Shown: piece after piece, positions 8,624-60,499 of the stretch
Numbering within the stretch: the stretch's first letter is position 1
How the letters are laid out: every line of letters begins with the position of its first letter
Assembly: GCA_035610835.1 (NCBI GenBank)
Contig: CM069442.1
Coordinates: forward strand, 30,457,798 to 30,521,797
Direction of reading: 5' to 3'
From: Ophiura sarsii
Lineage: Eukaryota > Echinodermata > Ophiuroidea > Amphilepidida > Ophiuridae
Length of the DNA stretch: 64,000 bases
The notes under the pieces: model-generated
Databases searched by the model: none
The model's input: only the letters and a program-made list of their open reading frames with translations
Told to the model about the DNA's origin: nothing
Made by a program: the position numbers and the translations under genes

Positions 8624-8689
8624 ATGGATTTTCTAAAAGCAGAAATAGCCAGGAAGAGAAAACAATTAGAGAGCAGTGCTGTTACGGGA
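8624..8689 (+). CDS. PRPF18: PRPF18 exon 1 (coding part)
   Basis: Encodes residues 1-22 ([20 protein letters not shown]...), matching the family N terminus. Ends in phase 0 at donor GTAAGT. The start is the first ATG of the conserved N terminus. Confidence 0.93.
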
Positions 8690-11600: not shown

Positions 11601-14600
11601 GTTAGGGATGCAATGACTGCCAATGCAATATGACACTAGATAACGCCGTTCACCGAGTGAAAAAAACATATAAAACACCTGAATTACATGGTTTCGTACG
11701 TAAAAATGTGAGCAGTGGTGTTCGCAAACATTATTGTTCTAGTAACTTTAGCATATTGGGTCATCAAAAACAATTAAAGTAAGCAGATTTGAAACAATTT
11801 ATTTTCATAATTTTCCAAAGCTGAAGTGGTCCCATTTTTGTGGAATGGCCCATATCATCACTACTATCAGCCTTATCTTATTATGACTTACCAGTTGAAT
11901 ACATTAATTTCATAGGTCTAAGTAATATAGACAATCTCGACAATGTCTTGCTAGACGTCCCGTAACTGATGTTGGGATAACAATTAAAATATGTTATAAT
12001 ATTTTAGTCCACTACGATACCTACCCGGTTTTCCGTACGGGACGTCATCATCATTCATGATCATTCATAGTCCACTCCATACCATAAAATATTATAATAC
12101 TATGGACATAATTTAATCTATTTCACACAAGTGTGTTTTGCTGCTGTTCGCGAATCTGCGTCCAGATCATAAATGTGTGAATAACTAAACTATGTATGCA
12201 TGAGCGTTACAATTGACCAATCATGTCCCACAGTCATTTTTGACATTTGAAAGTGCCGCGGTACACAATTCCGAGCTTATAACATTACGCACGCACGCAT
12301 TGTTGGAATTATGTCCAAAGCATTATGACACTTACTATAGCGAAAATAAAATATAGCCGACTAGCTGTAATCTCTCGAGTCTAAAGACATGTAAAATGTG
12401 TCCTTGGTAGTGGCGTTATACCAGGAGGGTGAGGGGGGGGGGGGGGGGGGGGGGGTGGTGGGAGGGTATTCACTCCATATGGACCATCAAACTCATTCAT
12501 GGGTTCGAGTTTTGTATTGAAAACTGGACAATGGACAACAGGGACTTACTTGGTATACTTGTTACATGTACTGTACATATCTACCAAGTATACATGATGT
12601 ACATGTATACTTGGTAGATCCTTTTGATCCTTATGTAGGACTCGCAGGTTCTTTTTAAAGGGGCATTGAAAGATACGTATGGGAGTGCGCCCTTAATATC
12701 CTGGAAATCAGTTTTTTTGCATCAAACTCAAAGTAATACTTAGGCATACTAACTACCATCTGAAACAGTGAACCAACATTCGCCGTTTATCATATAAAAT
12801 GTCATGATTTTCTTAGTTTCGATATGATCATATCGTAACTAAGGTGCTGAATTCGGAAGTTATGCTAGGTTTTACTCACAGACTTTCGCGGCAAATCTCA
12901 ACCCGGAAGTGCCGTTATTTGCTTAGTTTGGCATGAAGGCGATGTCGGAATTGTATGATATTTTGGATTTGGGCTATGTTGATGATTATCTGTACGTTAT
13001 TTGCTCATTTAGTATTTATATCGATACATCTCTCAATGCCCCTTTAAAGGTAATAGCCACTGTTGGTGCAGACACAGTTGATTCTGGCAGGGAGTTCCAT
13101 GGGTTAGCAAACCACTCTATTTGAGTAGAAGTGATAACAGGCATGATACTTTGTAGATAAAAATCGGAAAGTAGATATTTTTCACTCTCAAATGTAGATA
13201 TTTTTGCATTTATTTAGCTTAATTTTAGGCAATTTAGCACAAATGTCTGCTGTTTTACTAATATTTCAGGGAATTTCACCTGATGAGTATCATGCCTGGG
13301 TATTAGCTGTGTCCATGTGCGTCTTTTGACCAGCTTTTTGGAATGACCTCGTAAATTTGTGTGGGGGAGTGAGAAGAACTTATCCGCTTCCGTATTATTA
13401 TATCCATGAATAAATTTGTAGGTGTCATGTCAATAAGATCAGTCTGTCTCTCCTCTCTTGAAGAGATTCCATCCATTTATATAACAAGTATATCTTTTCA
13501 AATCGATACTTAACGCATCTGTGAATGTTTTACTTATACATTTTGAAATGTTGTTTCATGACAGTTGAGCGGTCTTCATCTGAGACGAGCATAGTGTCAA
13601 AGGAAAATACCCCTTCTCTATCCATACCTTCATAATTTATGATCAGGTATGCATTGTGTATCCATGTGTGTGTATACTCAGGACATTATTACTAAATGAT
13701 CAAAGATTGTGAAAATCAGGTTTAGAATGGAACTTGTGTATACATAGAGCCTAATTTTTTCTTACATCTTGACTTTCTTCTTCCAGGAAACATCAGGAAA
13801 GAAGTATTTTAAACGAGGTGATTTGATGGCAAAGGAAGCTGAAGAATACATGAAGAAACATAGAAAGGTGAGCAATTCAAGGGTTAGGTAGAAATCATGG
13901 ACCATATTCTTGTGCTATGTATTCGGGTACCCGTTTGCCCGCCCAAAATTCCCAGCCTTATAGACCATTTCAAATTGAGATCGGCAAATCTTCGGAAAAA
14001 CAGGTCACGTGGAGTAGGTGCGTTGCGCGTTCTTCGCAACAGTTGATTGCATTCACAGTCTTATCCTAGTTGGTTGTCCGCCTAGTGATTTACTATGTTT
14101 ACATACACACGTGCACACATGAGAAGTAAAATGTGGAACGAGACTATTTTGTTTTTTTTATTAACAATGGAGTTGACGGGCAAATTCCAGGGATACAATC
14201 TGTCACCAACACCAGTGCAATCTACCACATGGGCAGACGGGTGAAAAACACGTTTGTTTTTCTCCGGCACATGGCCATAACCTGTCAGGAGCTGACAGGT
14301 CATGGAAACACTCGGCTAATCGGAAATATCCGGAACCGATCGTATATTTTCGGATTTGAAATGGTCTATCTTTTAGACAGGACGTTAAATTATTTCTTCG
14401 TAACTCCACACATAAATGATAGTCAGTGATTTTGTTCACTGACCATCTAGCCTCCAGGATATTATGATTATGGATTCATTTCCAAAAACATATTTTTTTT
14501 GATAAGAAAATGTTAGAGGATAGGATTGAACTGAAGGCCTACAGATAATGTAATCAACATTCTTCCCCATCTGACTCAATAGCTCAGGTGGTAGAGTGCT

Positions 14601-17600
14601 GGTCCAGCGATCCAGGGGTCCCAGGTTCAAATTGAGGATGGTCCATGATTTTTTTTTCACTGTCTATCATTTGTAACTTGTGGAGTTAAGAAGACATACT
14701 TTACTCACTTAATCAAGAATAAGAATAGTGTTCAGCCCATAAAGCCAATGTAATGTTAATTTACCTATCCTAAATAAACTGATAGAAATGGTGTTTCTGT
14801 TTTATTCTCAGGACAGTGAAACAGACACAGAAGATAGGTTAAAGCCTGGTAGCTCCAATGCCACAGACGATGCTCAGCAAGATCCAAGTATCAATATATT
14901 ATCTAGGCAAGAGGTTTGTATCGGCCAAGAGACTGTATCTAAGTTGATCAAAATAAAATTTATAATTCCTTGATCCAAGAGGATTTGCCCAAGTGTTATT
15001 AAGACTTGGAAATGGTGCATACATTTGAAAAAAGCCAATAGGCACCTGAGAACACATGAATGATTTAAATCAAACTTACTGAAAACCGGGACTGAAAAAT
15101 GCCAAACCTATTCTGATCCACAATTTGTCGGCTAAATGAGATTTTTGAGAAAAAAACATTTTTTGGGCACTTTTTGGTCAATATTTTCAAAACAAACAAA
15201 TTTTAAGCCATAAAAAAAAATTCGCTCCTAGATAATTGACTTTAGATGATTTTGGTGAAATTTTGGAATTTTTAATCAAAAACTGATATTGTTAGGTTGT
15301 CTGAAAAATTTTGGCGCCAAAAAGGTGATTTTTGGGCAAAAATGTAAAAATCACTAATTTTAGTAAAATTTGATACCAAAAATGGATTCTCGGACTCATT
15401 TCATTACAAAAAATGTATACTTTTATGTACATCACATTAATAATTTAAAAGTTACAGTGCTTGATAAATTTGGCGCCAAACAGGGTTGACACCAACCTTA
15501 AAGCGGAGATTCCTTTGACATGGAGTAGATTTCAAAAAAGGCATTTTAATGCAAATGCTAAAAAAGCAATTTCAAACTCCTATATGTCATTGCAATTCGC
15601 TGGGTGGTCCAATTTCTGTAATAATGTTGGCAATGATTGGTGGTGTTATACAAGCAGATGATGTCAGGGACATTTTCCCAGCTCAAATTTATATGCACAT
15701 GTCACATGTCATTGTCAACATTTGTATCAAATTATTTTGACATGAATGTGTAGCCCAGGCTTGAAATAATAACATGATAGATTGAAGTGTCTAATGATAA
15801 CTATAATGAACCTCAAGACTTGGAGCATGACTGGAACCTTTACCATGTACTTTTGTCATTTCCATTTTTAAAACTTTGCATATATTCATGTGTTTCAGGT
15901 GATCAGAAGATTAAGAGAACGTGCTGAACCAATCCTTGTATTTGGAGAATCAGATTCCGATGCATTCTTCAGATTAAGACGGATAGAAATGATGGCGCCA
16001 GAAATTAACAAGGTAAGCCATGATGAAGTAATGACTTTGAAATGTAAATGAAATAGTATGTGACTAATCACATCTAAAGAGGGCCTTTTCAGCAGTGGTA
16101 TGCTTTTGAAGATATTGATGAAGTAAAGCATAAAAAAAGAAGTGTGGATAAAATCCTCAATTTTCATTTTTAATGACATCATTTAAGCTGATTAAGCTCC
16201 CTTTTGATATATCACCGGTGACATTATGGCCAACATTCGAAGCACGATTGATGCCTCTGAACACTTTATACTGGACCTGTTCCAAGATAGAGCTTGTCCT
16301 TGTTTTGGTGTAGCAGATATCTTGTTGAAAGAAAGAATATACACCTTTTTCATGGTAGCAAAATTCATGCCATGAATTGGATGTCACACATTGACTCAAT
16401 GTAGTACGGAAGGGGCACTAGTCCGCCGCTGTGTCCGTTCTGCTTGACTGCATGGATAACATCCAATTCAAACCAAAGAGAATGGATTTTCATCAGGATC
16501 TAGGACTATGCTAGCTTGCAAATAGAAGCATTATTACATTATTTTAAAAATCATGAACATGTCAGGGAACTATGTGGATGTTCACAGTTTGGTGTGTATC
16601 CATGGTTGTGATGTTAAATACCAGAAGATTGCCTTTGTGATCTGGGATTGATTTAAAGGGGCATTGGGAGATTGTCGAGAACAATGAAATTTAGAAAAAA
16701 GGATTTTTTTCTTCAATAGATATATATCAATAGGTATGTAGAGAACCCTGTGCTGTAGTGTTATGATTTATGGGAAAATGGTTGAATAATGGCGTTAGAT
16801 TGAAATTTGGCTGAAGCAAGTTATGTGGTGAGTGATGCTGATAATTTCGATGTGATCTACATCAAAATTACCAAATCGTGACATTTTACATGATAGTCCG
16901 CGAATTAAGGTAGACGGTTTCAGATGGTTGCCTAAGTATTACGAAGGTGCAAAAAAATATAGCTCTGTGGAATAACACACACAAGTTGTGAATCACTGTG
17001 AATTACTTTTTTATTATTATTATTTACTGTAAAACAAAAACATATTGAAAAATCTTTCCAAATATTGTACAGGGTTATCGTAATGATTTCAAAGATGCCA
17101 TGGATAAAGTTGACCAAGCCTATCTTGATGAGATGGTCAGAACGCAAGGAGAAGATGTCCCTAGTAGTGCGTACGATATCAAGTGTCCAGATGAGGGTCT
17201 TACGGAAGAAGATCTCATTGAAATGTCTAAAGGTTTAAGGAAAGGTGATGAAGAGCTGGATTTCAGGGTCACACTGAGTTTTATCAAGGTGAGTTGTCTC
17301 CATGGGAGTTACAAGGAACGAATATTTTCAAGAAAGATGAGAATTATCATGGCAATGATAGAATCAATTCAATTCACATCTTAGATCGTAGTCTGCTTGA
17401 AATATTGAATTAACACTGTGTGAGCAACACACTGTAAGCACCTGAAATTATCATGCTTCTGGTTGTGCTTGCATCACACACGATATGCAGTTCTTATTGT
17501 TGTCAGTTATAAATCTGATTGTAGATTGTTTTACCTGGGAATCCAAGGGAAACTTCACAAAACCAAAGTAAGTTATCGGAAGAAAAAAAAGGTCAAAACA

Positions 17601-20600
17601 TGCATATTTGACCCATGTGTTATACTATTAACCCCTGGGTACTACCTATCTTTTGTACAAGAATTCCCATTGGTCAATTGCATGATATAATCATCTTGAC
17701 AACCAATTACATTTTTGCTTATAAATCTTTGTGTGTTAATCTTTTTGAAATTTGTAATATTCTAATAATATCTCTGATTGGCACAATATTTCACGGCTGT
17801 TTGACTGTCCGCTTTATAATTAAAATTATGGGATAAAAAAGATTACATAGTGGCACATTTATGGTTTGACCTGATTTAGGTAGCGCTAATGAATACGAGT
17901 ATCATACGGTAAAAAATTCAAGAAAATTGTTCGAGCCCTTTTTAAATTATCTGCATTTTTTACTTGGCACACATTTTACATGTAACTCTATGGGAAATGT
18001 GGCCGATGAGGGCGCTATTATAGTAAATAATAATATTCAAAGCTCTATTTCTCAGAACTGGCACCAACAAATGTTCTGAAATTTCTACAAAAGATGGCCA
18101 GTATAGTCAGGTACTTGAATCAGTTAAAACCGGAACAGGGCCAGCAAGTTACGGTGTTCTTAGAATAAATCGGACAAATTATGTGGGATCAAACAGCCGT
18201 GATTTGACACATTCTAAATTTCAACCAATCGGCAGGTAGTTCTCATGGGGTTAACAATGAAGCTCAATTTATATTGAAATATAATTTTATAATCACTAAC
18301 CAAAGATCAGAATATGTATTGTCGAGATTTAAACAATGAAATAATCACACAGCTGCCACCAATTGTTGCAATTTAGACAAACTTATTGAGATAAAGAAGA
18401 AACTCATACATATTCAATACAATATCAGTCTACATGCTGCTATATTCAATACAGTTGCATATTCTTATTAAATCATATAGGCTCAAAGTGTACCGGTCAA
18501 AAGCTACTTTCAGAATCTTATTTACAGGCTATATTCAGGCTATTATATAGATGTGTCATGGTCAAGTGCTACAAGCAGAATGACTCTCCCTGGCAAATCC
18601 CTTTCATAGGTTTTGGTCCCACCCACAATTATAACCCAAGTCAATAAGCTACACTATCTCTACACAATCTGTGAGAGATTTTGCGGGCTGGCTCTACATA
18701 ATCTGTGAGAGATTTTGCAGGCTGGCTCTACATAATCTGTGAGAGGTTTTGCAGGCTGGCTCTACACAATCTGTGACAGATTGTGTGAGGGATTTTGCAT
18801 GGATAAACAATGTGCATGAAATTGCGAGCCCCTATGAAGAGGTGAAGAGATGAGAAAATGAAACCTTTGTTTATTCTCTATGTAGTTTCTTCTTGAAGTC
18901 TGGGCAGATGACTTAAACGCCAGACCTGAATTTGTAAAGAAAAGCACCCGTGGTAAACTACATAGTGCTACGTACAGTCAAACACAAGCAATGATTAAAC
19001 CACTCATGAGTAAATGAAACCTTTGTTTTTGGTCTATGTAGTTTCTTCTCAAAGTGTGGGCAGACGACTTAAATGCCAGACCTGAATTTGTAAAGAAAAG
19101 CACCCGTGGTAAACTACATAGTGCTACGTACAGTCAAACACAAGCAATGATTAAACCACTCATGAGTAAATGAAACCTTTGTTTTTGGTCTATGTAGTTT
19201 CTTCTCAAAGTGTGGGCAGACGACTTAAATGCCAGACCTGAATTTGTAAAGAAAAGCACCCGTGGTAAACTACATAGTGCTACGTACATTCAAACACAAG
19301 CAATGATTAAACCACTCATGAGTAAATGAAACCTTTGTTTATGGTCTTTGTAGTTTCTTCTCAAAGTGTGGGCAGACGACTTAAATGCCAGACCTGAATT
19401 TGTAAAGAAAAGCACTCGTGGTAAACTACAGAGTGCTACGTACAGTCAAACACAAGCAATGATTAAACCACTCATGAGAAAACTCAAAAAGAAGGTAAGT
19501 CAGAGTAAATTTTTGTAGCAAAAAGTGCTCAAATATTTAATGTTCATGAGGGAAATGGTGCAAAATAACTTCCCGAGGTGACTGGAGACGTGTGGGCCTA
19601 CTATTTCCCCAAGTCTGAATGCACCATTTTCAGCATATAGAGTGTCAGTAAATATTTGTTTTATATAACACATACAAATATTTCTGTCATTTGAAATACT
19701 TTGATAAACAAAAGATAATAGGTCAAAAGAGTATTTGGCCATCATGAGACAGTGACGTAACCACGTATTCTACTAATTGCAGCACATAGCGCGCGCCTAC
19801 TCGCGGCGCTGGTGTATACTCACGAGGGTTGAAAGGCGGAAGATACATACACGTGCATAAAAGCTGCGCATGTTAAGTTACGTCACTGTCCAGAGGAAGC
19901 CAAATAGAGTATGGGCCTACTCAATGTACCAATCAAGGTTCAGTCGCTATAAGCTTACCTCCATCGGCGCCTTTTCTCTCGCCGATTGACAGCATATTTG
20001 ATTTGATTTTTCTTATTAGCACTGTCTACATCGTCGAGTAATTGCTCCAATGCATCTTCCTTCACCAATGGGCCGAAACCCAAATTCTACATTTTGGTGA
20101 AAAACTCTGGGAAAATTAGTCCGAATGGCAGTGAAATAAAAATAAACAATGCAGACGATACAGAGTCTGATTGATTGACACAAACGTGTCAAGGTCAAAT
20201 TATTTACAAAAGTTCGCATAAAAAGGTACTATTTCCCTTGCAGCTCTTCATCACAGGGTAATAGTACTTTTTTATGGGAACTTTTTTCCCTCCTGGGAAA
20301 TAGTGGGGAAATAGTTCAAATATTTTATGTCACATGACGTAGTATCCACCAATCAAATGACAGGAATATTTACATGTGTTATATAATATGGTATGTAACA
20401 TACCAATCCAGATAAATGAAAACGCAATTTTTCAAATATTTGTGAGTTTTTGGACTGTGTCATGTATGTCTGTCCATCACCCCTATTGGAAAACAAGTTA
20501 TTTTTTTTGCGCCACATTTTGTTTGTTTTGCTATGCATTAGTAATATTAAAAAATAGGGTAATTTTGTTATGTGAAAACATGTTTTCACAAGTACTAGTA

Positions 20601-23600
20601 CACAAGTACAAGTATTATAGAAGCAAAAACAAATCCAGAATCTTTCTTTTTGACCTACGTTTGCACGAGCTACCCAGCACCACTTCAATAGCTATTCAAA
20701 ACTAAACTTGTCAACAAGAAATAAATCATGGATTAGGCGACAAACCCCCTCCCCCCCTGGTCGGTCGGTCGGGCGTTTCTTATTTTTATTTTAACCTAAA
20801 ATGTCACCAAAATCTGGATTTGTAAAAAAAATCTGTGAACAATGTTTCTCGACAGATTTTCAGCCAAAACAGATTTTACATGATTTGAGACAAAATTATC
20901 TAAAATAAAAAAGTTTTTTTTTTCCTTGCCTTACAGACCAATTTTACCCTTCAATGTATTTACATAAATACGTAAGGAAATGCATGAAATTATTCTCAAT
21001 TAACTGTTATGATTTGATGTGTATTATGTTTTGCAGGCTCTCTCTCCTGATCTGCTGGACAGTCTTGCAGAAATTGTGAAATTTATGATGCAAAGAGAGT
21101 ATGTTAAGGTAGGGTTCCCACAATGCAGTTGTGTAAAGAATTTTAATTTGCGAATCATTATTTATTCTCTTGTGTCACACTCTAACACCTAATTTTGAAA
21201 GACTGATCACAGTCATTTACATTTTATCGCATATTATTAACAGCAAGCCTGCATGATTCACTTATATTTTTTCCGAGAAAATTGAGATTCAATACATTTA
21301 AAGTCATTTTCATTTGTGATTTTTTTTCCTAGAAGTGCATTTTGTTGTTGTCAAATTACATTTATAACCATGAAACTAAAATATCTAATAAGTTACAGAA
21401 CAATACCTTTCCTAATTACTTCAAAACAAGATTTTGAAATCAGTTGTCCTGGTACCGGGACAGTTTATTATCTGAGTACCGAGTGGTTTTTTCGTTCGTT
21501 AATAGAATTCCATGGTTTGATACCGTTTTAACGCCATTTACAGTGTTTCCGGTTATGACCGCAACTGTACACAAGTGAACACACCCCTACAGAATGCTTT
21601 ATGATGAAAATCGAAACAAATGTGTTGAAAAATTCCTTAAATTCGAAGCAGATTTCCATTATGATTTACATGTAGTAAAGTTCTTTGATGATTGCTTTAC
21701 TAAAAATACAGTCAAAGAAGATTCATGAGTCCAGGAAAGTCTTTCCTGATAGTCAAACTTCACTATGAGAGAGAGAGAAAAATATGTGTAAACATTTGAA
21801 AAAGATCACATAATATTGCTTTAGATGAGCTATAGCAATGTATTAATTGACTCTGATAGGGTCATAGATCAACATGTTAAGAGTCGTCAACCTATGAAAC
21901 TTTCATGACTCCTTTAGACCGGGCTGTACATATTTCTTTGACAATATATCTCTAAACAGCAGCAGCTATCTTGTTAGGCCAAGAAAAAAGATTTGTCTCA
22001 CATACCTGCGTGCATAAGCATGTGGAGTCACTTTTACCGCATAACTCTACACTATGAGACAATTTTGGGCTATAAAAAAGAAATTGTTGTGTGAAAAAAG
22101 TGGACCAAACACACAATCATTTTTTTTCTGCATTTAGGGAGTGTTCAGAAATACTTTGGTGGGGGGGGGTTGGCCAAAACGGGGGGGGGGGGTCTAAAAA
22201 GTTTGAAGTCTCAAAAAGGGGGGGGACTAAAAGGTTTTACCTACTCAAGAGGGGGGGTCAAAAAAGTTAGGCCCAAATACTAGTCGTTAACGGGAAAAAT
22301 ACCAAAATTTTATGCGCTACGCGCAAGTAAATACTGCAATATTGCCATTTCTATAACAAATTATACAGATTTCCGCACGCTCCGCGCAAATCTTTGTAAA
22401 AACATTGTGCCCACAGCAGAATTTGTTATACAAAATGTGGCTAACCAGTGTCCACAATTTTTACTTGAGAACTGTTGATAAGGGTGATCGTCAACAGGGT
22501 TAAATACACATTTCCATGCGCTACACGTTATTTTGAATGCAGTTGACCAAATTTCTGCGCGGGGTCAAAAAAGTTAGGCCAAATAGGTAGTCGTTAACGG
22601 GAAAAATACCAAAATTTTCTGCGCTACGCGCAAGTAAATACTGCAGTATTGACATTTCTATAACAAATTATATTTGTAAAAACATTGTGCCGACAGCAGA
22701 ATTTGTTAAACAAAATATGTGGCTAACCAGTGTCCACAATTTTTACTTGAGAACTGTTGATAAGGGTGATCGTCAACAGGGTTAAATACACATTTCCACG
22801 CGCTACACGTGATTTTGAAGTTGAACGCAGTTGACCAAATTTCTGAGCGGGGGGTCAAAAAAGTTAGGCCAAATAAGTAGTCGTTAACGGGAAAAATACC
22901 AAAATTTTCTGCGCTACGCGCAAGTAAATACTGCAATATTTACATTTCTATAACAAATTATACAGATTTCCGCACGCTCCGCGCGTGTCTTTGGGAAAAC
23001 AACGTGCAGACAGCAGGATTTGTTATACAAAAATTAATGTGACTTACCATTTTTTGCCCGCTACGCATGATTTTGAACTCATTTTTTCACATTTTGTACT
23101 AGCAAGTTGACCAAATTTTTTGTTCTCTTTTTTTTTGTTCTTTTTGTGAAAGTATTGTGTAGATAGAAGGACTTGTATACAAAGAGTCACTTTTTACAAT
23201 TGGAAAAAGAAACCGTTTTTAAAAAGGCTATAACAATACATGATAAATACAAATCACCGAAAAATACAATTCGGAGTCTTGAAAGATATGTTTCAAGTGA
23301 ATTTGAAATGTTGCAAATTGATTGCCAGCTATACACAGTTCTGACTGTAGTGTAAGCGTCATAGAACTTGAGTCAAATGTCTATCTACATCTGACAGTAG
23401 GGGGGGGGGGGTCAAAAAAGTTTTTCACCCTGTTAAAGGGGGGGGGGGGGGGGGGTCAGAAAAGTTTGTCAATTTGTAAAGGGGGGGTCCAAAAAGTTTA
23501 GACACCAACAATTTTTTTTTGGCCAACCCCCCCCACCAAAGTATTTCTGAACACTCCCTTAGCATAACTATTTTTTTCAAAATAAACCACAAAAACAAAC

Positions 23601-26600
23601 AAACCTCATATAGCATAACTATTTTCCCAAATGTATGTGAGACAGACCTGTCAATTTCAACATGTCTTTTAAATAATAAGAAATCATTCTCTTTTTTTGA
23701 CCTTTTTCTAAAGAAGTTCAGAATGTAATAAGGCCTAAAAAAAGGTGTTTGATTGGCCTAACATGACAAAAACAAATAGGGTAGGTCGGTCGGGATTTAA
23801 AATTTTTTAATTTTATTTTTTAAATCAACTGCTTTGGGGACTTAAAATAGCCGAAAATGAAAGCAAACAGTAAGAAACTTTTTAAAGTATAAAAATTGAA
23901 CAAGTATTAAAATACTTTGTTCAATTTTTATTTATTTTTTTAATTTTTTTAATTTTTTACATTTAAAAAAAATATTTATTTTTATTTTTATTTTTTCCTC
24001 CCTCAAAATAATTTTTAAAAAAAGGGTCGGCGATGTATTTAGGGTTGGTCGGGTTAGGCCAATCAACATTTTTTTTTTTAGGTCTAAGTAACAAAAAACT
24101 ATTTCATCACTCAGCATCAATTAATATGTGATATCGTCGCTAATCTGTCAAAAGCGCATATCTTCATCCGGCCTTTTATCATGTAGCCTATAAACAGGCA
24201 TGTGAAATCTCCGATTTGTGTCGGAAGTCTTATTTTTCCCAAAATCTCCCAGATTGAAATTTTAGATTTTAAGTATAAAGTAATAATTCCTATGTATAAC
24301 CTTTGTGGCAGACTGCTCTAAACATGTTCAAGGGCCAAAAACACAAACGCATCTTATCAAAACCTTGCAAAGTGCTCCTGCCCTGAACATGTATAAAGTA
24401 ACACTTCCTATGCATAACCGTTGGGAAGTTTTACTTTATATGCCGAAGGGCTGTTAGAAAAGCAACGATATATTAACTTCTGTTTTTTTCCAGGCGAATG
24501 ACCAGTATTTACAGATGGCTATTGGCAATGCACCGTGGCCTATTGGTGTCACTATGGTTGGAATCCATGCCCGTACAGGCAGAGAAAAGATCTTCTCAAA
24601 AAATGTGGCCCGTATCCTTTTGAATTGATTGAATTATTTGTACTAGGGCAACAACTTGACTGAACCATTTTTTGTCTCGCCTGATATAATCAGGATGAGA
24701 CTATGTACTCACTATTTCTGTATGTCCGGCGTATGGTGTATGGCGTATGCCGTGTGCAGCTTAGAATTGTTTGTGAACGCTGCCTCTTAAGAATGGTAAC
24801 AGTTATGAATGTGTGCGTTAGTGCAAAATAAAGAGGATGTTACCGTTCATAATCTGATGTCGGTTTGGGCCCAAAATATGCTAAGGAAGGGCCTCATTTG
24901 CATATTTTTTTGCGAAAACCACATACACGGTTGCTGAGCAGGCGAGATGCGCTTTTTTTCATTGTTACCTTATCAAATAATTATTGAGTAAGTTAAAAAA
25001 GGAAATATGTTTACAACAGGAAACGAACTTTTTTGAGCCATATTTTAATGTTCACATGTGAGAGTAACACTTTTATGCTACATATTTGAATAGATGAGTT
25101 TTTCACACTTCACTCTACTCTGTGCAGCCCTGCATTAACTTTGAATTGGTCCTTGACAATGCTAGTTTGTTTTGTACTAAATCATGAATGCATTGTAGTT
25201 TAAACCAATCACATCATTGGTCTGACTAGAACAGACAGTGTTTCCAATTTATGAGCCTTACTGTGCTTTATAATATTGGATTCATTAGCTTATTGGGCTA
25301 CTTTGAAGGACTAAAAGCTGACATTATTGCCAAAGATAGCAATTTTTAGGCTACTTTAGCAATCATTGGCAATCAAGGTTGGTATTGAGAAAAGGTATCT
25401 ATCAGGCCTATTGTTTGCACATAGATTTAGTCAGTTTCAACTCATGAACAAAATATGCTGCTAGAATTCTCATAGAAGCTTTGGTGGATAATTTCAAGGC
25501 CAATGTAATGTTCAAAAACTAAATTCATCGAAAGTGCTGTTGAGTTGTTGTTATTACATCTTCTTCTGGAAAAGTGTAACTTTATGGACTAGTCGAGGTT
25601 GAAATGCTCTGCAGGTCTTGGTCAATGTAATATCTTGGACACACTGAAATGGGCTCCACTCAAAAGACAGATGCAAAATCCACAGACTTGCCTGCCTTTA
25701 CAAAATGATCAATGGTCAGATAGATATCAACCACGAGGACTACACTACACCAAAGACATCTAGAAACAGGCGTGGTCATGCACAGCAATTCCAACAAAAG
25801 CACCCAAGAACTGACATCTAGCTATGCCAACTCTTTCTTCATGAAGACTCGTCGATTGGAACAAACTCTCTCCCGAAATCGTAAAAATACTGACTACCAA
25901 CTACCCCCCTCCGTCGCACCTTCAGTCAAAACTCTGTTGGAGTATTTGGAGGTTCCAAGGTGTGTGAGCTTGCAGATATGGACGCAAGCTACTACAACAT
26001 ATACTTCTGTTTCTACTGGTTAGCCTGTTTGCAAGTTCCTTGTGCGATATCCTGTCCTGTGATCAGCGCAACAAGAAAAAACACACTTGTGGCCAACATG
26101 AATTGAACAAGCGCAATCTTACACACTGGAAGTGTTGGGTAGTATTTCTTCCAGAACCAGAAAAGCACAAGTTAGTGCACCTATTCCTGTATAAACTTTG
26201 GTTCTTTATCGGATGCTATTTGAGGAACAATTCAGGAATTCAGCATGTTGTTAGTAACTGTGACTACATTTACTAGTCTGTGGGATGATGCCGGTGCCAC
26301 AATTGGAGTAGTCATATAATAATCCGATCGACATATGGTGGTGTTCTAGCCAATTTGGGTAAGTGTTTTGAAGGTTTTTTTGAAATCTTTTAGTTTAAAT
26401 TGGAGTTTTAATTTATTACTTTCAGACCAGGGTTTGAATTGATTCGAAGCAACATGAAAGGAATGTGAGAAAACTGCAGCATGTAATGTCAGCTAAACAC
26501 ATCAGGATGACAGTTGAACAATTCTATGGTAGTGGGAGTTATGTGACCAAAACTCTCATCGTGTGTTAAATTTGAAGGGGCTTCAGAAAAGGAGACAAGT

Positions 26601-29600
26601 TTGGTATCAAAATAATTCTACAAGTTTTCTCAATTTAAATATGTTTTCAATTTTATTCTGTTAATTATTATACTAGAGATATACAGCTTTATAAAAGTAT
26701 CGAAAGTTTTAGGACACCCTGTACCAGATTCATGCACTGATTGTCCCCTTTTGACCGATAGAAAGGGCTTGAAAACAAATAAATGTACCGTGGAGATGAT
26801 TTTTTGATTTTCATTGTGTTTTGATGAATAAAACCTTCTTGGTCTACTTAAAAGACCAAAGTACTGATAAAGCTCATTTGAATTCATGAAATTAACATTG
26901 TAAAAGAACCTGCTTAGGTTTTAACATTTTGTTTTTTGTTTCTTTTACTAGGGCCATCTCTTTACTGCATTCCAGGCCAAGTCATTAAGTTCTTCCAAGA
27001 TATTAAGAACATCTGATTATGCCATGCCAGCTTGCATCACATCCCACCAAGTGCTCTAGTCTTCAAATTCGTAACGAAGAAGTACTGAATACAGTAACAA
27101 TTTCCTGGTGACACAGTGATGGCAATGGTCTAGTTTCTACTGCAATGCAAATTCTGATTTTTATACGAGGGGGTATCAAAAAGTTTTAGAAAACACCCAG
27201 AAGTGAAGGAGCCAGAAACTTCATTTTGTTATGTGATCCTTCAGACATCTTTACAAAGTTCCTGTGCAAAGTTACGCATTTTTCCTACTATTTATTAACC
27301 GTCCACAGACCGCCATTGTAGAGATCCTCAGATTGACCGCCATTGATCGATTCTCAGATTGTGTTATTCCCAAAACAGCAATAAATAGTTTAAAGTGTTG
27401 ACAGAAAGGGTCAAAGGTCATGTAGGGGTCATTAGAGTTCAATCTGTGTACACCCCATATTACCAATAAGTTTATTGTCACCAAGCTTGTTTGTAATGAC
27501 CTTTGACCCCTTTCTGTCAAAACTTTAAATTATTTATTGCTGTTTTGGGAATAACACAATCTGAGGCAATCTGAGAATAAATCAACGGTGGTCAATCTGA
27601 GGATCTCTACAATGGTGGTCTGTGGACAGGTAATAAATGGTGGGAGAAATGTGTAACTTTGCACAGGGACTAAGTAAAGATGTCTGAAGGATCACATATC
27701 AAAATAAAGTTTCTGGCTCCTTCACTTCTGGGTGATTTCTAAATCTTTTTGATACCCCCTCGTATAGGTGTCGCAGGGTGGGAAAATCAAGGATTACATT
27801 AACACTATTAATTTGCTGATGCTTCATGAACGGAGCGGAGCGTAGGGGCTTTTGTCGGACGAAGAGAATAAAGACGAAGACCACTGATGACACGTAGATT
27901 TAATTGTTGATAACTTTTAATAACTCAATTCAGTAGACATCTGTCTGCACCTGTATAAACTTTTAAATCAAAGGAATGTTGCCAATTAACAACATTGGTA
28001 ATAAACAAAAATGAAATTTAAATATGACCTTTGATGATCAACTTTAAAATTAAAACACATGGAATAACTATGACATAATAACATAATTAAATGAATATTA
28101 CTGAACATAAAGTTATGCAATGGAAGTACAATAGGAATAGACCCATATCTGCAACTTCAGCAACATTCTACAATATTGGCGATGGTGCTCTCCTTGAGGT
28201 GCACCCACCTGATAATGTGCTCTAATGTTAGTTTAGTATAAAAAAAGTCTTAATATCTATCTGAACTCTTTTTAAAAATTTAATTAAACTTTTCTGTATT
28301 GGTATTCACTCGTTTCAATAGTAATTCCAACCATGGACATGTTTGCCAGACGAGGAGAAAGTCTAGAAAAGTGGTATAATTCAAGGAATATGGATGAAAA
28401 ATGCAATTATAGCTCTGATATTAAGATAGCGACAGCTTTTTATGTCTTAACCTCTGTACATCACAAAATAGACATTGGTATACTCCATTGACGAGTCACA
28501 TGAATAATATCAGTACAACATTTATATTTTGTGCAAGTGGAAGATGTAGAAGTACCAACACTGATAAAACAAGTGCTATACAGGGTGAGTAAAAAAAAAA
28601 GTGTACTCAAATTTGGGATTTTATATCTTAAAATCTGTGAAAAAAATTCACAGATTTTTTTTATTGAGGCATATGGATGATCTTATTAGCTTTCTAAAGA
28701 ATTTTAGTTGGTTGAAATTGTTCATGGTAAACATATGTTATGCTCATTTGCGTAAAAGTGAACAGTTTATAAACCGAACAAGATTTGCGATATTTTCTCT
28801 TATAAGATCTATTGAATTCCAGTATTAAAAACGGTCCACACTCTGTCCGAGCTGAGTCCGACTATCACAAAAGCCAACTTGTTTGTTGTTGTTGCTAAAT
28901 TAATGTTTGAAAAAATATCTGAGAATGTTTGATTTGACTTTATTAGTTTTTATTTTCCTTTGACGACACTTTTTTTTCACTCGCCCTGTATGTCCATTGA
29001 TAAATTCTGCATAGGGGTGTTATTTTTGCGGTGAATAACAAAATGTGCATAATTTGATCAGTAATCAACCAAAAAAGTTTCATTGCCAAATAAAGAATTA
29101 TTAGTGCCAATTTGAGATTGGCAAATAAATATAAGAGGTCGAAAGTTGAAGAAATTAGAAAAAATGTGCTCTTATGATCATATTTTATCTGTTATTATTA
29201 TTGCTTTTATTTAAAATCATATTTATTGGTTTTATTTACAATCATGCCACTACATGCATGTCTTCAATGGGGACTTTTAAAGAACTACCATACACTTGGT
29301 ATGGTGTTCTAAATTTGAGCCAAAATGATTGGCTATTTGCAAACCTTTTTAGATTAAAATCTCCCATTAGGGACAATTTTAATAAACATAATCTTTTAAC
29401 ATTTTATTTTCCCCCTCAAAAACCAGATCCTCTTTTATACCCCTATGCAGAACTATTAATAGTGGATCCTTCACCATAAAGGTGTTGGCAGTTCACTCCC
29501 CCTCCCCCTAACATGTGTTGTGTGATTATTTATACTAGTGTGGTTGTCATTTATTCATTTGTGTACATTGTGAACAAGGCATCATCAGTTAACATGAATT

Positions 29601-32600
29601 AAACCTTGATCTTAAAATGCTGAATCGACAGTTTTAGGTTGGATGGGAATCTTGAAGTAAGACATTGTTAATGGGGTATTGCTATGTTTTAAAACCAAAT
29701 CCACATAAAATCTAGGGTAACTTTTTCTGTAATGCAAACACGCATGGGAAAGGGATATTGCTGTTAATATATATTGGTGATGCTTGATCACAATGTTTAC
29801 AAGTTTATGATGATTATCATTCATTTATCAAGAATCATTTTCATAAATATATGACTATTTTTTTGGTTTAAATATCTGCATTAATAGTAAAGCTAGCATG
29901 TAAGACTAATTTGGAAGAGTGAAAGGCACCATACCATCTCATAACTTTATCACCTATAGAGGAATTTCTGTTCTGTTCCAATAGACTTATCTGATGTGTA
30001 TTGAATCATTTGCATTACAAAACTCCCAGCACTATGCTATTGTTGCAATTAATAACTACAGGGTGTCTCAATAATAATTGATACCTTTTAAAACCTTTGT
30101 ATCGCCGATAAAATAATCTATAGAAAAACTGAAAGGAAACTTGGATAGAGAACACTTGGAGAATTATTTTGATTCAAACATTGTTTCTTCCATCCAAATA
30201 TATTTTCAGCTGTAAAATGCAAATTATTTTACAGTGGATAGGAAACTTTAAACTAGGTATTGACACTTTTGGGACACCATGTTCATAAATCATTTGTACT
30301 ATCAACAGGAGCCATGCTGCCATCAGACGGGGCTGAATGAAATCTAAATAACACATTTGATGTAATCACGGTTATTGATTTGCATGAAGAGAATAGGCCA
30401 AGATTCATTTTTGTTTTTCATTCTTCCAACTAGTAAACTTACATTATGCCCTAAAAGAATGCATAACAAATCTCTGAACATTAATTTTACAATCATATTT
30501 TCAACCAGTCATATTAAATGATTTGCATAAATGAATTATAATGATCATGAAACAAGTAAGTACATTATGAATATTTACCTCCTTCATATTCATTTGTAAT
30601 TCTTATTTGATATCAAGATTGTCAATGTCAAAGAATAATCTGATGAAATGTCTTTGTGATGATATCAATTAAGAATAAATAATATGAATAGGTACTTAGT
30701 CATAATGTGAACAAATAAAGTACATAATGATTATTCATAAGGTACACAATGAATATTCATGAGGTACATATTGAATATTCATGAGGTATGCATTGAATTT
30801 TCATGAGGTATGCATTGAATATTCATGAGGTACGCATTGAATATTCATGAGGTACGCATTGAATATTCATGAGGTACATAATGAATATTCATGAGGTACA
30901 TAATGAATATTCATGAGGTACATAATGAATATTAATGAATATTCATGAGGTACATAATGAATATTCATGAGGTACGCGTTGAATATTCATGTGGTACGCG
31001 TTGAATATTCATGAGGTACGCATTGGATATTCATGAGGTACGCATTGGATATGCATGAGGTACGCATTGAATTGAATATTCATGATGGATATCATGAGAT
31101 GCCAGATGAATATCCTTGAGGTTCATGATGAATATTCATGAGGTTCGTAATGGTTATTTATAACTACATAATAACATCTAGTACGGGGGAAAATGTACAC
31201 TCGTGGCATAGAGCCTCATTGTTGTTTTATAAAATAACACACATTTTGGTGCACGCCAATTTGTGCACAGCTTCGATTCAGAAAAGAAGTGTATATTTGA
31301 CATCCAATGAATAAGATTTTGCCAAAATCACAAATTATTTGTGTTAGTGTACTTGTTTAAATTGAAGGAGGATTGAATATTTATATATCTAACCCAATAA
31401 AGGATAGAGTTCACAATGAGTGTTAAAAGACAACTTCAGCGTAAGTAATTATTACTTGATAATCTATGAAATAATATCACTTAAAGCAAAGCCAGTCAGA
31501 TTTGTGGTTTGAGAACCAACTTTCTTTTACTTTTGCATGATAACATCCTCCCAACCTTCTACTGCTGCTAAAACAAACTGATCTACTCATTACATGTCAT
31601 CAGGCGCAAGCAGGCGAGACGTGCCGTACGAGAACTGCTTGTTTAGAATGTGAGAACAAAATGTAAATACATTTTGTGAACAATTTTCCAATTTAGAAAA
31701 TTGTCGAATATTCACCAACATTTCCTACCTACCTGAGTGGTTCGTTTACCAATAATACAGGGGTTTTGTCGCCTAAGCACAAAGAGTCTGTAATAAACAT
31801 TTTGGCCGCAAAAACATTTCTTTGGAAAAGGTGTCTCGGTGGTTAGGGTTAAAAACCAGCAACGGAAGTTACGGTAGCCCATCACTAAGCCACACCATCA
31901 ATGCCGCTTTGACATGAATTCCCTTATCGCATGCGGGAATGGACTCAATAATACGTATCAGAATGCACGTGCATGATAAATGTTAGAAACACTTGCGGTC
32001 TAGCAATAAATACAGTGATCACGTTGATGGATGGTGTGACAGTAATATCGATAAAAGGTATTTCAAGTCCTTCAGCCGGCGATCGGAACGCTTTTTTATT
32101 TTTCATCCACACTTTTTACACAAACACGCATTATAACCAGGTAACTCCCAACCACACGCTTTTGTTAAAATTCAGCAATTTAAAAAGCGTGGGTTGCACA
32201 CTATGTGCTTACTTTCTATGACTGGAATGAAACCAAAACAATTAATGTGTAATATTTCATTTTACTTGATACATACATGTAGGTCTACATTTAAGCTTCT
32301 TTATCCTATAGCATTGAAAGGTTAGTTCTCGTCACTGTTTCTGACATCTCTATTGCCCAAAATAGTGTACTGTTGATATCATGGGGCTTTTCAGAAACAA
32401 GTTTGTGCCTAACTTAAAAATAATGAGCACATGAAATGAGACTATACATGTACATACAACGATCATGTATACAATAACACATAACATCTCACCTTCGTCG
32501 ACTCCACTGGCTCCCCATCAACAAACGGATTATCTACAAAATTCTTTTTCTGATTTTCAAGGCCATGCTCGATCTTGCTCCATCATATATCTGCAAACTT

Positions 32601-32965
32601 TTGCAACACCATAATGCAAATCGCGTTTTACGCTCGGCATCACAATTCCGCCTCCACGAGCCTATAGGTCATCTACTTCGTCATACGGTATGAGAGCATT
32701 TTCGATCGCGGCGCCTATGTTATGGACTAATTTGCCTTTGACTGTTAAAAATGCCATTTCCGTCTCTTCATTCAAACATGCTCTCAAGACTCACCTTTTC
32801 TCATGATCCTATCAGACTCTCTATTTTTGTATCTTTTTACGTTCCTGTGTGTGCATCGATGCTCCATGTTGCTGTTATATTCTTTGCCTTTAATCCCGTA
32901 TCTTTTATGTGTATTTTTGTGTACAGCGCTCTGAGGTCTTTATACATGTTGCGCTTTATAAATAC

Positions 32966-33003
<38 letters not shown>

Positions 33004-42648: not shown

Positions 42649-42775
42649 AGAAGCATGTAGACTGATATTGGGTTCGATCATGATTTTAGGAATAATTTAG
42701 ATACCTTTTTCGAACCATTGTGTTTGAGCTCCGTAGCTTTCGAGGTCATCACGACCCCTTCATTCAGCGTAGTGT

Positions 42776-43207
42776 TTACTGCCCTCCGTTTGTCACATGA
42801 CCACCTTTTAGGCGATCACATGACAGCAGGTCATCGTAGATGGCGGGTAGGTCGTAGCCGGTGTCTCGGTTGAGGGTCGGTTTCCGTGTCCTTATTTCAA
42901 CTGCCTCTCTGATCTTGCGTTTCCAAAACTGGTCCTCTCTCGCGATCACTTGGACGTCGTCTAGCTTGATTTTGTGCTTAGAGTCTTTTGAGTGTTCTGC
43001 TACAGCTGTGAGAGGAGTAGCTTTGTGGTTCGAGTGTTCTTTGAACCTAGTGGCGAGTGCTCTGCTGGTTTCACCCACGTAAGATTTGGGGCACTGCGGA
43101 CAGTCAATTTGGTATATCACGCCACATTTATTTGCATCAGGGGTTTTGTCCTTGGGGTGTACCAAAAAAGATCTGATGGTGTTGATCGGTTTGTGGTAAG
43201 TTCTCAC
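42776..43207 (-). CDS. GIY-YIG endonuclease fragment of a Penelope-like element
   Basis: 143 aa. The GIY motif appears as GVIYQIDCPQC and the YIG motif as SYVGETSRALATRFKEH, which includes the conserved Arg and the His. Further on are AVAEHSKDSKH, QFWKRKIREAVEIRTRK (candidate catalytic Glu) and PTLNRDTGYDLPAIYDD near the end. In full-length elements this domain follows a reverse transcriptase and nicks target DNA. Here the frame starts at the inversion point, so the first ~20 residues have no certain origin and the RT is missing: a remnant, although the endonuclease frame itself has no stop. Confidence 0.8.
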   Translation of the reverse strand: MRTYHKPINTIRSFLVHPKDKTPDANKCGVIYQIDCPQCPKSYVGETSRALATRFKEHSNHKATPLTAVAEHSKDSKHKIKLDDVQVIAREDQFWKRKIREAVEIRTRKPTLNRDTGYDLPAIYDDLLSCDRLKGGHVTNGGQ

Positions 43208-43423
43208 TCAAAAGACTCTAAGCACAAAATCAAGCTAGACGACGTCCAAGTGATCGCGAGAGAGGACCAGTTTTGGAAACGCAAGATCAGAGAGGCAGTT
43301 GAAATAAGGACACGGAAACCGACCCTCAACCGAGACACCGGCTACGACCTACCCGCCATCTACGATGACCTGCTGTCATGTGATCGCCTAAAAGGTGGTC
43401 ATGTGACAAACGGAGGGCAGTAA
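43206..43423 (+). pseudogene. Inverted duplicate of the GIY-YIG C-terminal part
   Basis: The + strand repeats the last 71 residues of the endonuclease frame (SKDSKHKIKLDD... to VTNGGQ) without visible change, because it is the other arm of the inverted repeat. It lacks the GIY and YIG motifs and has no function by itself. Confidence 0.8.
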
Positions 43424-43511
43424 ACACTACGCTGAATGAAGGGGTCGTGATGACCTCGAAAGCTACGGAGCTCAAACACAATGGTTCGAAAAAGGTATCT
43501 AAATTATTCCT

Positions 43512-43523
43512 AGAGTTATTCAT
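43512..43523. repeat. Target duplication, right copy (Penelope-like element)
   Basis: AGAGTTATTCAT, identical to 42637-42648. Confidence 0.75.
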
Positions 43524-55184: not shown

Positions 55185-55320
55185 CTCCGTAGGTGATTAC
55201 TGTTTACAAATCACAGAGAGAATATGGTCAGCTATGAATGTATAGCGAGTTTATATTTAATGCATGTGGAACCTTCTGTTATAAATGAAGCCCTAAAAGT
55301 GAGCCAAATATCAGACACTG
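55185..55320. other. FKBP8 5' flank
   Basis: Expected to hold 5' UTR and core promoter of FKBP8 on the - strand. No TATA box in a convincing position. Confidence 0.3.
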
Positions 55321-58413: not shown

Positions 58414-59711
58414 TATGGATTTGTTTGGCTCAAAAAGCACACCTAACAGAGCCTATTAAATACACGCAAATTACTAGCTATAGGTTGGGGCGGACCTACG
58501 TCACGCCGGTGAAAACAAATCAACGCCGGTGAAAACAAAAACAAAAACAACTTGCGCAGATCAATCAATTAAGGCAACCGCACATTGCGCCTACTGCGGA
58601 TCAAGTGCGTAACGCTCAGCGTTGAGTGCGTGCATGGAATGTTTTGTTTCTGAAACACTGGTTGCCAAGCAAATTTGCTAAAAATAACTCAAAGTTCCCG
58701 TATGTCCGCGCCCTCGTATTTCCTATTTGCCACTGTGTAAACAAATTATTACGGGCCGTCTGTGGGGATATCGATTAGCTTCACGTAGATTCCTACACGT
58801 AAGATTTTTATTTTTCCAAATTCATGAAATGCCCTGATAATATCTCCATTTAACTCCCTTTCCATCACTCTCTGACAACTGATATTTGACAAATAGTATC
58901 TTTATATTGTTAATAAACTTCATGTTAAGTCATACTGTTAAAAAATAGATGAAAACAGTGAATTTGTATCAATAGAACGATGAGTACTGTATGAACTCAC
59001 AGCTCGCAATCCGTGTTTGTGTGTATAGTCAATGGGGCTACGCTCGACCGTAAGATTTTGGTACCGATTCCGTAATTCGTCAATTCAGAAAAGTACAAAT
59101 GACGTGGGCTTTTCTCAACCAATCAAAATGTATTTAACATGGACACGTTTCAAACACACTAAGTGTACGATGGCGTGTGTATGAGATGTGTACCTTATTT
59201 ATTTCCAGAGACACAGCAAGCTGAATACATGCCCCGTAAAAAACGCGTGCACTTGGTGAATTTGACAATAATGTTGTTATTCTTTACTGTGTGGGGAATC
59301 GTGAAATAATAGGATGGAAAAGTAAAATATTAAATGACGCGGGCATATATTTTTCTAAAAATATAAAATGTTGATTTTAAGAAAGAGAATTACTTTAGCT
59401 TTATGTGGACACCTGGGCAATCTACCTTAATAAGACGGACAACTAATCGGACCCCCTAGCTTACTGAAAAAAACACTGGAAAAATAAACAAAATCAGCTT
59501 AACGATGTTATCGATCTCTCACAGCGGTACTGCTGTGGGAGATCAATATTGTTCGCGCGTCAAAAATAATAATAAAATTAAATAATTAAAATAGCCTAAT
59601 CACTTACAGCTATAGTGTGTCTCAATTTTTGTGTGTTTGTCTAATTTATTATAGTGTGTCCCACGCAAACCCAATCAATGATATTAGTAATATTATTGAC
59701 GTCATAATAGG
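58414..59711. other. No gene recognised
   Basis: No exon-like frame. A short hairpin-like TCTCCCACAGCAG / GATCTCTCACAGCGG pair occurs near 59510-59545 (GATCTCTCACAGC...GCTGTGGGAGATC). Otherwise featureless to my reading. Confidence 0.45.
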
Positions 59712-60155
59712 TGTGATGGGCATCCTACGCTCTATATACTTACTACCTTAACACGACGGAAACGGCTTTTTCTCCATTGTCGGGTATGCTGTTCCGTCTT
59801 GTTAAGGTAGTAAGTATATAGGTGTGATGGGCATCCTACGTTCTATATACTTACTACCTTAACACGATGGAAACGGCTTTTTCTCCATTGTCGGGTATGC
59901 TGTTCCGTCTTGTTAAGGTAGTAAGTATATAGGTGTGATGGGCATCCTACGTTCTATATACTTACTACCTTAACACGACGGAAACGGCTTTTTCTCCATT
60001 GTCGGGTATGCTGTTCCGTCTTGTTAAGGTAGTAAGTATATAGGTGTGATGGGCATCCTACGTTCTATATACTTACTACCTTAACACGACGGAAACGGCT
60101 TTTTCTCCATTGTCGGGTATACAGTTCCGTCGTATTAAGGTAGTAAGTATATAGG
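59712..60155. repeat. Tandem array of four 111-bp hairpin units
   Basis: Unit starts at 59712, 59823, 59934 and 60045, exact 111-bp period. Each unit holds TATATACTTACTACCTTAAC and its complement GTTAAGGTAGTAAGTATATA, giving a ~29-bp stem around a ~35-bp loop (CGGCTTTTTCTCCATTGTCGGG). Units differ at only a few positions; the last has CGTCGTATTAAGG, which pairs better than CGTCTTGTTAAGG in the first three. Confidence 0.93.
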
Positions 60156-60499
60156 TTTTGATTAAATATTTATCATACTAAATGAATACACGGTCCGGTA
60201 CGGACGGAAAAGGGGATTTCTTTGGGGGATATATAGCAGCAAAAAAGAGGGGCTTGGTATAGTTTTGGGGGGAAAAGAAGAGGCTTTTTTTTATCAAAAG
60301 TACCGTCCTATTTATTTCTGGATCTGCCGTCTTATTAATTTTTGGGGAAAGCGTGAATATTTATCTTAAAAATAACGCTTTTTTTAATTTTTGGATCTGT
60401 CGTCTTATCATTTTGGGGGGAAAACGTGTTATTTTGAAGTCCCAAAATTAATAAGACGAAATTGAAAAATAAATACAATTTGAAATGGTGGTGAAAATA

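Follow-up and report, generated by a model that had tools for sequence, protein, structure and literature searches.

In tandem exon duplication, as in clusters of mutually exclusive exons, copies of an exon and its upstream splice site lie head to tail within one gene as products of local duplication. In intron gain by tandem duplication, the duplicated segment lies within coding sequence, and an AG/GY proto-splice site that it contains gives rise to a new intron. Test constructs with duplicated 3′ splice sites, in which near-identical acceptors stood in a row with one donor and a truncated exon followed some of the acceptors, were reportedly made by Reed and Maniatis in 1986. Minisatellite-type arrays show near-identical inner copies and probable unequal exchange, and poison exons add an early stop to the mRNA of splicing-factor genes, the SMNDC1 poison exon being conserved and regulated according to the accessible sections of one report (PMC11357089).

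A locus that resembles each of these systems in part was found at exon 6 of the PRPF18 gene of the brittle star Ophiura sarsii, within a 64-kb stretch of genomic DNA (the window). The locus shares head-to-tail exon copies with an upstream splice site, local duplication and confinement to one gene with tandem exon duplication; however, a full exon is present only in the last copy, and since copies 1–3 have lost the exon end and the true donor and reach a stop, the copies are not exchangeable. As in intron gain, the duplication of part of an exon alters which splice sites compete, but the PRPF18 unit carries the old acceptor and lengthens intron 5, and the counts of AGGT and AGGC proto-splice sites were zero in each of the four units. 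The arrangement of the test constructs recurs here in a natural, fourfold form in a conserved gene. The 156-bp unit with its near-identical inner copies recalls a minisatellite, but it spans a splice site and a coding exon. Copies 1–3 would add an early stop to a splicing-factor mRNA as poison exons do, but in contrast to the SMNDC1 poison exon, as described in the accessible text of PMC11357089, they are alternative acceptors and not cassette exons. No earlier report of the array was found in listings of the tandem-exon-duplication literature or in the accessible part of the O. sarsii genome paper (PMC11139871); a phrase search for duplicated 3′ splice sites also gave none, which is uninformative because the prime sign is unsearchable.

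The complete PRPF18 coding region was located on the forward strand of the window at 8624–34037. Most exons were placed by tblastn, using a human PRPF18 sequence as the query, and splice-site reading gave the ten-exon model. Coding exons 1–5 occupy 8624–8689, 13787–13867, 14812–14913, 15899–16012 and 17073–17288, exon 6 (copy 4) occupies 19354–19494, and exons 7–10 occupy 21037–21108, 24494–24611, 33129–33166 and 33960–34037. With copy 4 of exon 6, the ten coding exons form an open frame of 1026 nt including the stop, encoding 341 amino acids (AA); when exon 6 is skipped, the frame is kept and 294 AA remain. A Pfam scan of the exon peptides gave 34 bits for Prp18 (PF02840; cut-off 32.5) with exon 6 copy 4 alone and 24.8 bits, under the cut-off, with the truncated copy 1, and together with the ten-exon model this confirmed the preliminary description, which had assigned the repeated exon to PRPF18 as exon 6. 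The assembled protein had 2118 protein matches at E ≤ 0.001. Among the best 120 of these, the majority were named pre-mRNA-splicing factor 18, the top eight were all from echinoderms, and the highest identity (84% across 77% of the query) was to PRPF18 of the brittle star Amphiura filiformis. No PDB sequence matched the 47-AA exon 6 peptide, and no structured RNA family in the window reached its gathering threshold. Intron 8 (24612–33128) resembles a U12-type (minor) intron. Its 5′ end at 24612 reads GTATCCTTT, which occurs once on the forward strand of the window, CCTTAAC is present at 33109, shortly upstream of the acceptor at 33129, and its donor scored −0.6 bits under major-class weights; the two motifs resemble the U12-type consensus.

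TRF analysis revealed a tandem array at 18850–19482 on the forward strand (period 156 bp, 4.1 copies, 96% matches, score 1161), with the regular period, several copies and high identity of a tandem repeat, and unit comparison resolved it into four 156-bp units plus 9 bp without any indel. Each unit consists of the final 36 bp of intron 5, including the polypyrimidine tract and TAG acceptor, and codons 1–40 of exon 6. Unit 1 (18850–19005) carries the acceptor at 18886 and a truncated exon 6 with a derived Glu at codon 4 and His at codon 26. Unit 2 (19006–19161; acceptor 19042) also has a truncated exon with His at codon 26, and contains a junction T at 19011. The truncated unit 3 (19162–19317; acceptor 19198) differs from unit 2 by a single base (19289, Ser to Ile). 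Unit 4 with the unique exon end (19318–19494) holds the acceptor at 19354, the complete 141-nt exon 6 and the donor AAG|GTAAGT. In copies 1–3, the frame ATG AGT AAA TGA crosses the junction into the next unit, so that 41 codons are followed by Ser-Lys-stop, and only copy 4 reads through 47 codons as far as the exon end and donor at 19494. The in-frame TGA codons reached from acceptors 1, 2 and 3 lie on the forward strand at 19015–19017, 19171–19173 and 19327–19329, which is 477, 321 and 165 nt upstream of the exon 6 donor. The numbers of differences per 156-bp unit were 9 (copies 1–2), 10 (1–3), 11 (1–4), 1 (2–3), 4 (2–4) and 5 (3–4). Four tandem copies of the exon and its 3′ splice site with the last alone complete, their four start positions at an exact 156-bp period, the 41 codons and Ser-Lys-stop of copies 1–3 with loss of the exon end and donor, and the near identity of copies 2 and 3 had all been reported in the preliminary description and were borne out by these analyses. 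A second tandem array in intron 5 (18658–18782; 34-bp unit, 3.7 copies) stops 67 bp short of the exon array.

Immediately after unit 4, on the exon side, come 9 bp (19474–19482, forward strand) that read ATGAGAAAA, exactly like the start of unit 1 on the intron side (18850–18858, forward strand). Among random pairs of window positions 100–999 bp apart, with two repeat regions masked, a shared stretch of at least 9 bases occurred in 24 of 365,884. Such identical ends mark a tandem duplication made at a microhomology shared by intron 5 and exon 6. At this microhomology the unit links intron 5 with the interior of exon 6, and the sequence thus shows the first event to have copied the final 36 bp of the intron, with its polypyrimidine tract and AG, together with codons 1–40 of exon 6. 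All three internal junctions read ATGAGTAAATG, with a T at unit position 6 that is present at neither array end, and most simply the first junction therefore mutated before the array grew. We consider it likely that an ordinary tandem duplication at the 9-bp microhomology was followed by further growth, with a probable unequal crossover within the unit, and that copy 4 is the one mostly used. As a mutation, the duplication is nothing out of the ordinary; its unusual features are its position, on a splice site of a conserved splicing-factor gene, and its tolerance there.

The shared junction base, absent at both array ends, also bears on the alternative that the assembler made extra copies or strung two haplotypes together. 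Such an artefact would agree with the single-base difference between copies 2 and 3 and with the published O. sarsii heterozygosity of 1.97% (PMC11139871, accessible sections). The published genome (1.57 Gb, scaffold N50 78.03 Mb) was, according to the same sections of PMC11139871, assembled from PacBio HiFi reads with a read N50 of 12,313 bp, about 19 times the array length, which speaks against it. Moreover, the copies differ by up to 11 bases, a false join is not expected at a 9-bp microhomology inside an exon, and a search of the assembly (1,573,662,873 bases in 748 contigs) gave a single place, the counts being lower bounds. With an array far shorter than the HiFi reads and internal junctions carrying a base found at neither end, misassembly is highly improbable.

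Comparison of the units revealed 13 variable positions. Seven of them (26, 27, 45, 46, 51, 60 and 69) set copy 1 apart from copies 2–4, as does the junction base at position 6. Positions 31, 99 and 114 distinguish copy 4 from copies 1–3, position 24 is common to copies 2 and 3 and is the sole two-against-two split, and position 128 is a variant private to copy 3. Three amino-acid differences result, namely Glu in copy 1, His in copies 1–3 and Ile in copy 3. Residue polarity was assessed from a protein alignment of 11 relatives. At site 46, Lys is present in copy 4 and in 7 of the 11 relatives; at site 114, copy 4 shares Gln with four relatives, including A. filiformis and both sea urchins; and at site 128, Ser occurs in copy 4 and in ten relatives. 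Glu, His and Ile are considered derived because none of the 11 relatives carries them at these residues, and the candidate role of copy 1 as keeper of an ancestral Glu was rejected on the same count. The confinement of derived amino-acid changes to copies 1–3 fits copy 4 as the coding copy.

The seven copy-1-only sites are crowded within 44 bp of the unit (positions 26–69; P = 0.002). After the duplication, the 5′ copy would have lost its use on being separated from its donor, and the coding role would have stayed with the 3′ copy. The two copies may then have diverged until an unequal crossover between unit positions 70 and 98 produced a hybrid middle copy, with a left half like copy 4 and a right half like copy 1, and a recent doubling of this hybrid would have given copies 2 and 3. 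The clustering of the copy-1-only sites points to the crossover, although no pair of sites formally requires it. Under the crossover model, the differences between copies 1 and 4 showed no significant clustering (P = 0.055), and by itself the surplus of changes along the branch of copy 1 was not significant (P = 0.09). Of the five coding differences found only in copy 1, four are synonymous, which is unlike a dead copy and speaks against the course favoured here; the crossover model absorbs this bias only if some of the copy-1-only changes belong to the working copy. With these small counts, a statement on selection is not firm. Tree-like growth without crossover was also considered. In this scheme copy 4 branches off first, copy 1 next and copies 2 and 3 last, and the left half of copy 1 would owe its differences to chance or to conversion by an unseen relative. 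The variable sites are pairwise compatible with a tree, but the seven differences confined to copy 1, leaving aside the junction base, all fall within the same 44 bp, and we regard this course as rather unlikely. The array had at first been described as young or homogenised. Youth holds for copies 2 and 3, with their single difference, but not for copies 1 and 4, which differ at 11 of 156 positions; an older first duplication with an in-unit crossover and a recent doubling fits better because of the crowding of the copy-1 differences. At the neutral rate of 1.885 × 10⁻⁹ quoted for A. filiformis in the accessible part of PMC11310086, 11 differences per 156 bp would correspond to about 19 million years and one difference to about 1.7 million years, as orders of magnitude only. 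Copies 2 and 3 differ by 0.6%, below the published heterozygosity of 1.97%, and the copy number would on this basis be expected to be polymorphic.

Splice sites were scored using human-type weights, and on this scale the acceptors of copies 1–4 scored 6.56, 6.00, 6.00 and 6.00 bits, with copy 1 marginally highest. The nine PRPF18 acceptors ranged from 6.0 to 13.5 bits, and that of exon 6 copy 4 was the weakest. The true exon 6 donor AAG|GTAAGT, at 11.8 bits, is the only strong donor and lies behind copy 4. Joining acceptors 1, 2 or 3 to this donor would give exons of 609, 453 and 297 nt with a premature stop; the stop had been foreseen in the preliminary description and was verified by frame reading and isoform translation. 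Only acceptor 4 gives a normal 141-nt exon with a strong donor, and on this basis we infer that exon definition favours copy 4 in splicing and that the spliceosome would mostly pick it. Three observations run counter to this preference: the copy 1 acceptor is slightly the best of the four and that of copy 4 the weakest of the nine in the gene; closeness to exon 5 might give copy 1 an advantage; and moderate donor-like sites inside the copies (5.1 and 4.4 bits) are comparable to the exon-3 donor (4.9 bits). Nonsense-mediated decay (NMD) acts on premature stops more than about 50–55 nt upstream of the next exon junction, and the stops reached from acceptors 1–3 all lie beyond this distance. Leakage to acceptors 1–3 would give stop-containing, NMD-type transcripts; the array would have no product of its own and may persist because the leak is small. 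A branch-point-like CTCAT formed by the unit junction (19003–19007, 19159–19163 and 19315–19319, forward strand) is present 36 nt upstream of acceptors 2, 3 and 4, and a motif search with the human-type branch-point consensus yUnAy found no such motif 15–50 nt upstream of acceptor 1. This contrast is weak because the PRPF18 acceptor at 15899 also lacks such a motif.

As a natural fourfold version of the duplicated-acceptor experiment, with near-identical acceptors at graded distances and one strong donor, the array would allow RNA-seq to show how far exon definition overrides proximity. It also bears on how a gene survives a duplication expected to poison it, and local duplications of this kind can add decoy splice sites to introns.

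Donor-like sites within the copies were examined in relation to the possibility that copies 1–3 act as cassette or mutually exclusive exons, ending either at the junction GTAAAT (124 nt) or at a GT within the copy. The junction base change created the GT of the weak donor-like site TGA|GTAAAT on the forward strand (19010–19015, also 19166 and 19322), which scored 0.0 bits, the 60th percentile of the GTs in the window. A frameshifting exon of 124 nt had been proposed earlier; its arithmetic is right, but the exon itself is unlikely with this donor against 11.8 bits for the true one. Three such exons together would have an in-frame length; nevertheless, the six isoforms that were tested with such an exon all end prematurely, at 238 or 248 residues, and the 32 nt between the junction GT and the next AG are too short for an animal intron. 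Inside the copies, the moderate donor-like GTG|GTAAAC occurs in all four (18953–18958, and after 19108, 19264 and 19420, forward strand; 4.4 bits) and AAA|GTGTGG in copies 2–4 (19053, 19209 and 19365; 5.1 bits). These internal donors are not dismissible, as their scores are near that of the exon-3 donor, and they lend the cassette explanation some weight. Isoforms with the 67-nt exon ending at GTG|GTAAAC stop early at 219 or 229 residues, and early stops were also observed with a 14-nt exon and, as above, in the three isoforms joining acceptors 1–3 to the normal donor. A 12-nt microexon ending at AAA|GTGTGG, from a copy ahead of copy 4, does stay open (345 AA), but it is unusually short, and as a replacement for exon 6 it leaves an open product of 298 AA with most of exon 6 dropped. 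The complete exons of a mutually exclusive cluster are absent, copies 1–3 having neither exon end nor true donor, only substitutes, which score 0.0 bits for the junction site and no more than 5.1 bits for those inside the copies. Mutually exclusive or cassette exons were not favoured, given the missing strong donor and the early stops of the 124-, 67- and 14-nt-exon isoforms, and we hold such a role to be extremely improbable.

The upstream acceptors are all intact and lead to stops 165–477 nt before the exon 6 donor, as would also be expected of a functional poison-acceptor array, in which regulated use of acceptors 1–3 would send PRPF18 mRNA to NMD and the gene would set its own level. According to the accessible text of PMC11357089, human core spliceosome genes have been reported with NMD-targeted transcripts, and the PRPF18 orthologue was among the Arabidopsis counterparts examined, which would suit this explanation; in the same text, however, Arabidopsis poison-exon reads are given for the SMNDC1 orthologue only. 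The accessible part of PMC10711555 describes yeast Prp18 as promoting 3′ splice-site fidelity, which again is favourable, but also states that some upstream 3′ splice sites can be favoured when Prp18 is missing. The sign of such a loop would be destabilising for this reason, as loss of Prp18 favouring upstream sites would lower PRPF18 further, the wrong direction for homeostasis. Structural and biochemical studies cited in the same part of PMC10711555 found no PRPF18 in human C* and P spliceosomes, and the acceptor choice would probably precede the Prp18 step because every copy has a tract and an AG of its own. The location of the amino-acid changes in copies 1–3 argues against a regulated array as well. 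The A. filiformis PRPF18 protein contains exon 6 once, although a protein says nothing on silent upstream copies. Judged by the titles listed, no paper on PRPF18 autoregulation was found. We regard a regulated poison-acceptor array as very unlikely. An array that senses dose, in which four competing acceptors with only the last productive would report and adjust the PRPF18 level through their split, and copy number would be a tunable, possibly polymorphic dial, is a highly doubtful extension. An influence of the PRPF18 level on acceptor choice would amount to a new way for a splicing factor to regulate itself, but the evidence does not lead in that direction.

The frequency of tandem arrays (period of at least 50, at least 1.9 copies) was estimated from 20 stretches of 10 kb, which contained 13 arrays covering 5,139 of 200,000 bases (2.6%). 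From this coverage and the nine acceptors of the gene, chance would place about 0.2 PRPF18 acceptors inside an array before any selection. The window contained 13 arrays of period at least 50 in 64 kb, about three times the density of the sample (13 in 200 kb), and five of them lie between 59707 and 63282. The array at 59707–60156 (111-bp unit, 4.1 copies, 97% matches) is of a size class like the exon array but lies outside PRPF18. A further local duplication within PRPF18, in intron 7, consists of two copies of a 290-bp unit (22393–22962). The window also contains a perfect inverted repeat of 308 bp (42687–42994 and 43205–43512), whose arms overlap part of a GIY-YIG ORF on the reverse strand (42779–43207; Pfam 23 bits, cut-off 22.6). 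The ORF and the inverted repeat are possibly part of a Penelope-like element. A 208-AA ORF on the reverse strand at 54573–55196 scored 20.4 bits for FKBP_C, below the cut-off of 21.1, and is perhaps an exon of an FKBP8-like gene.
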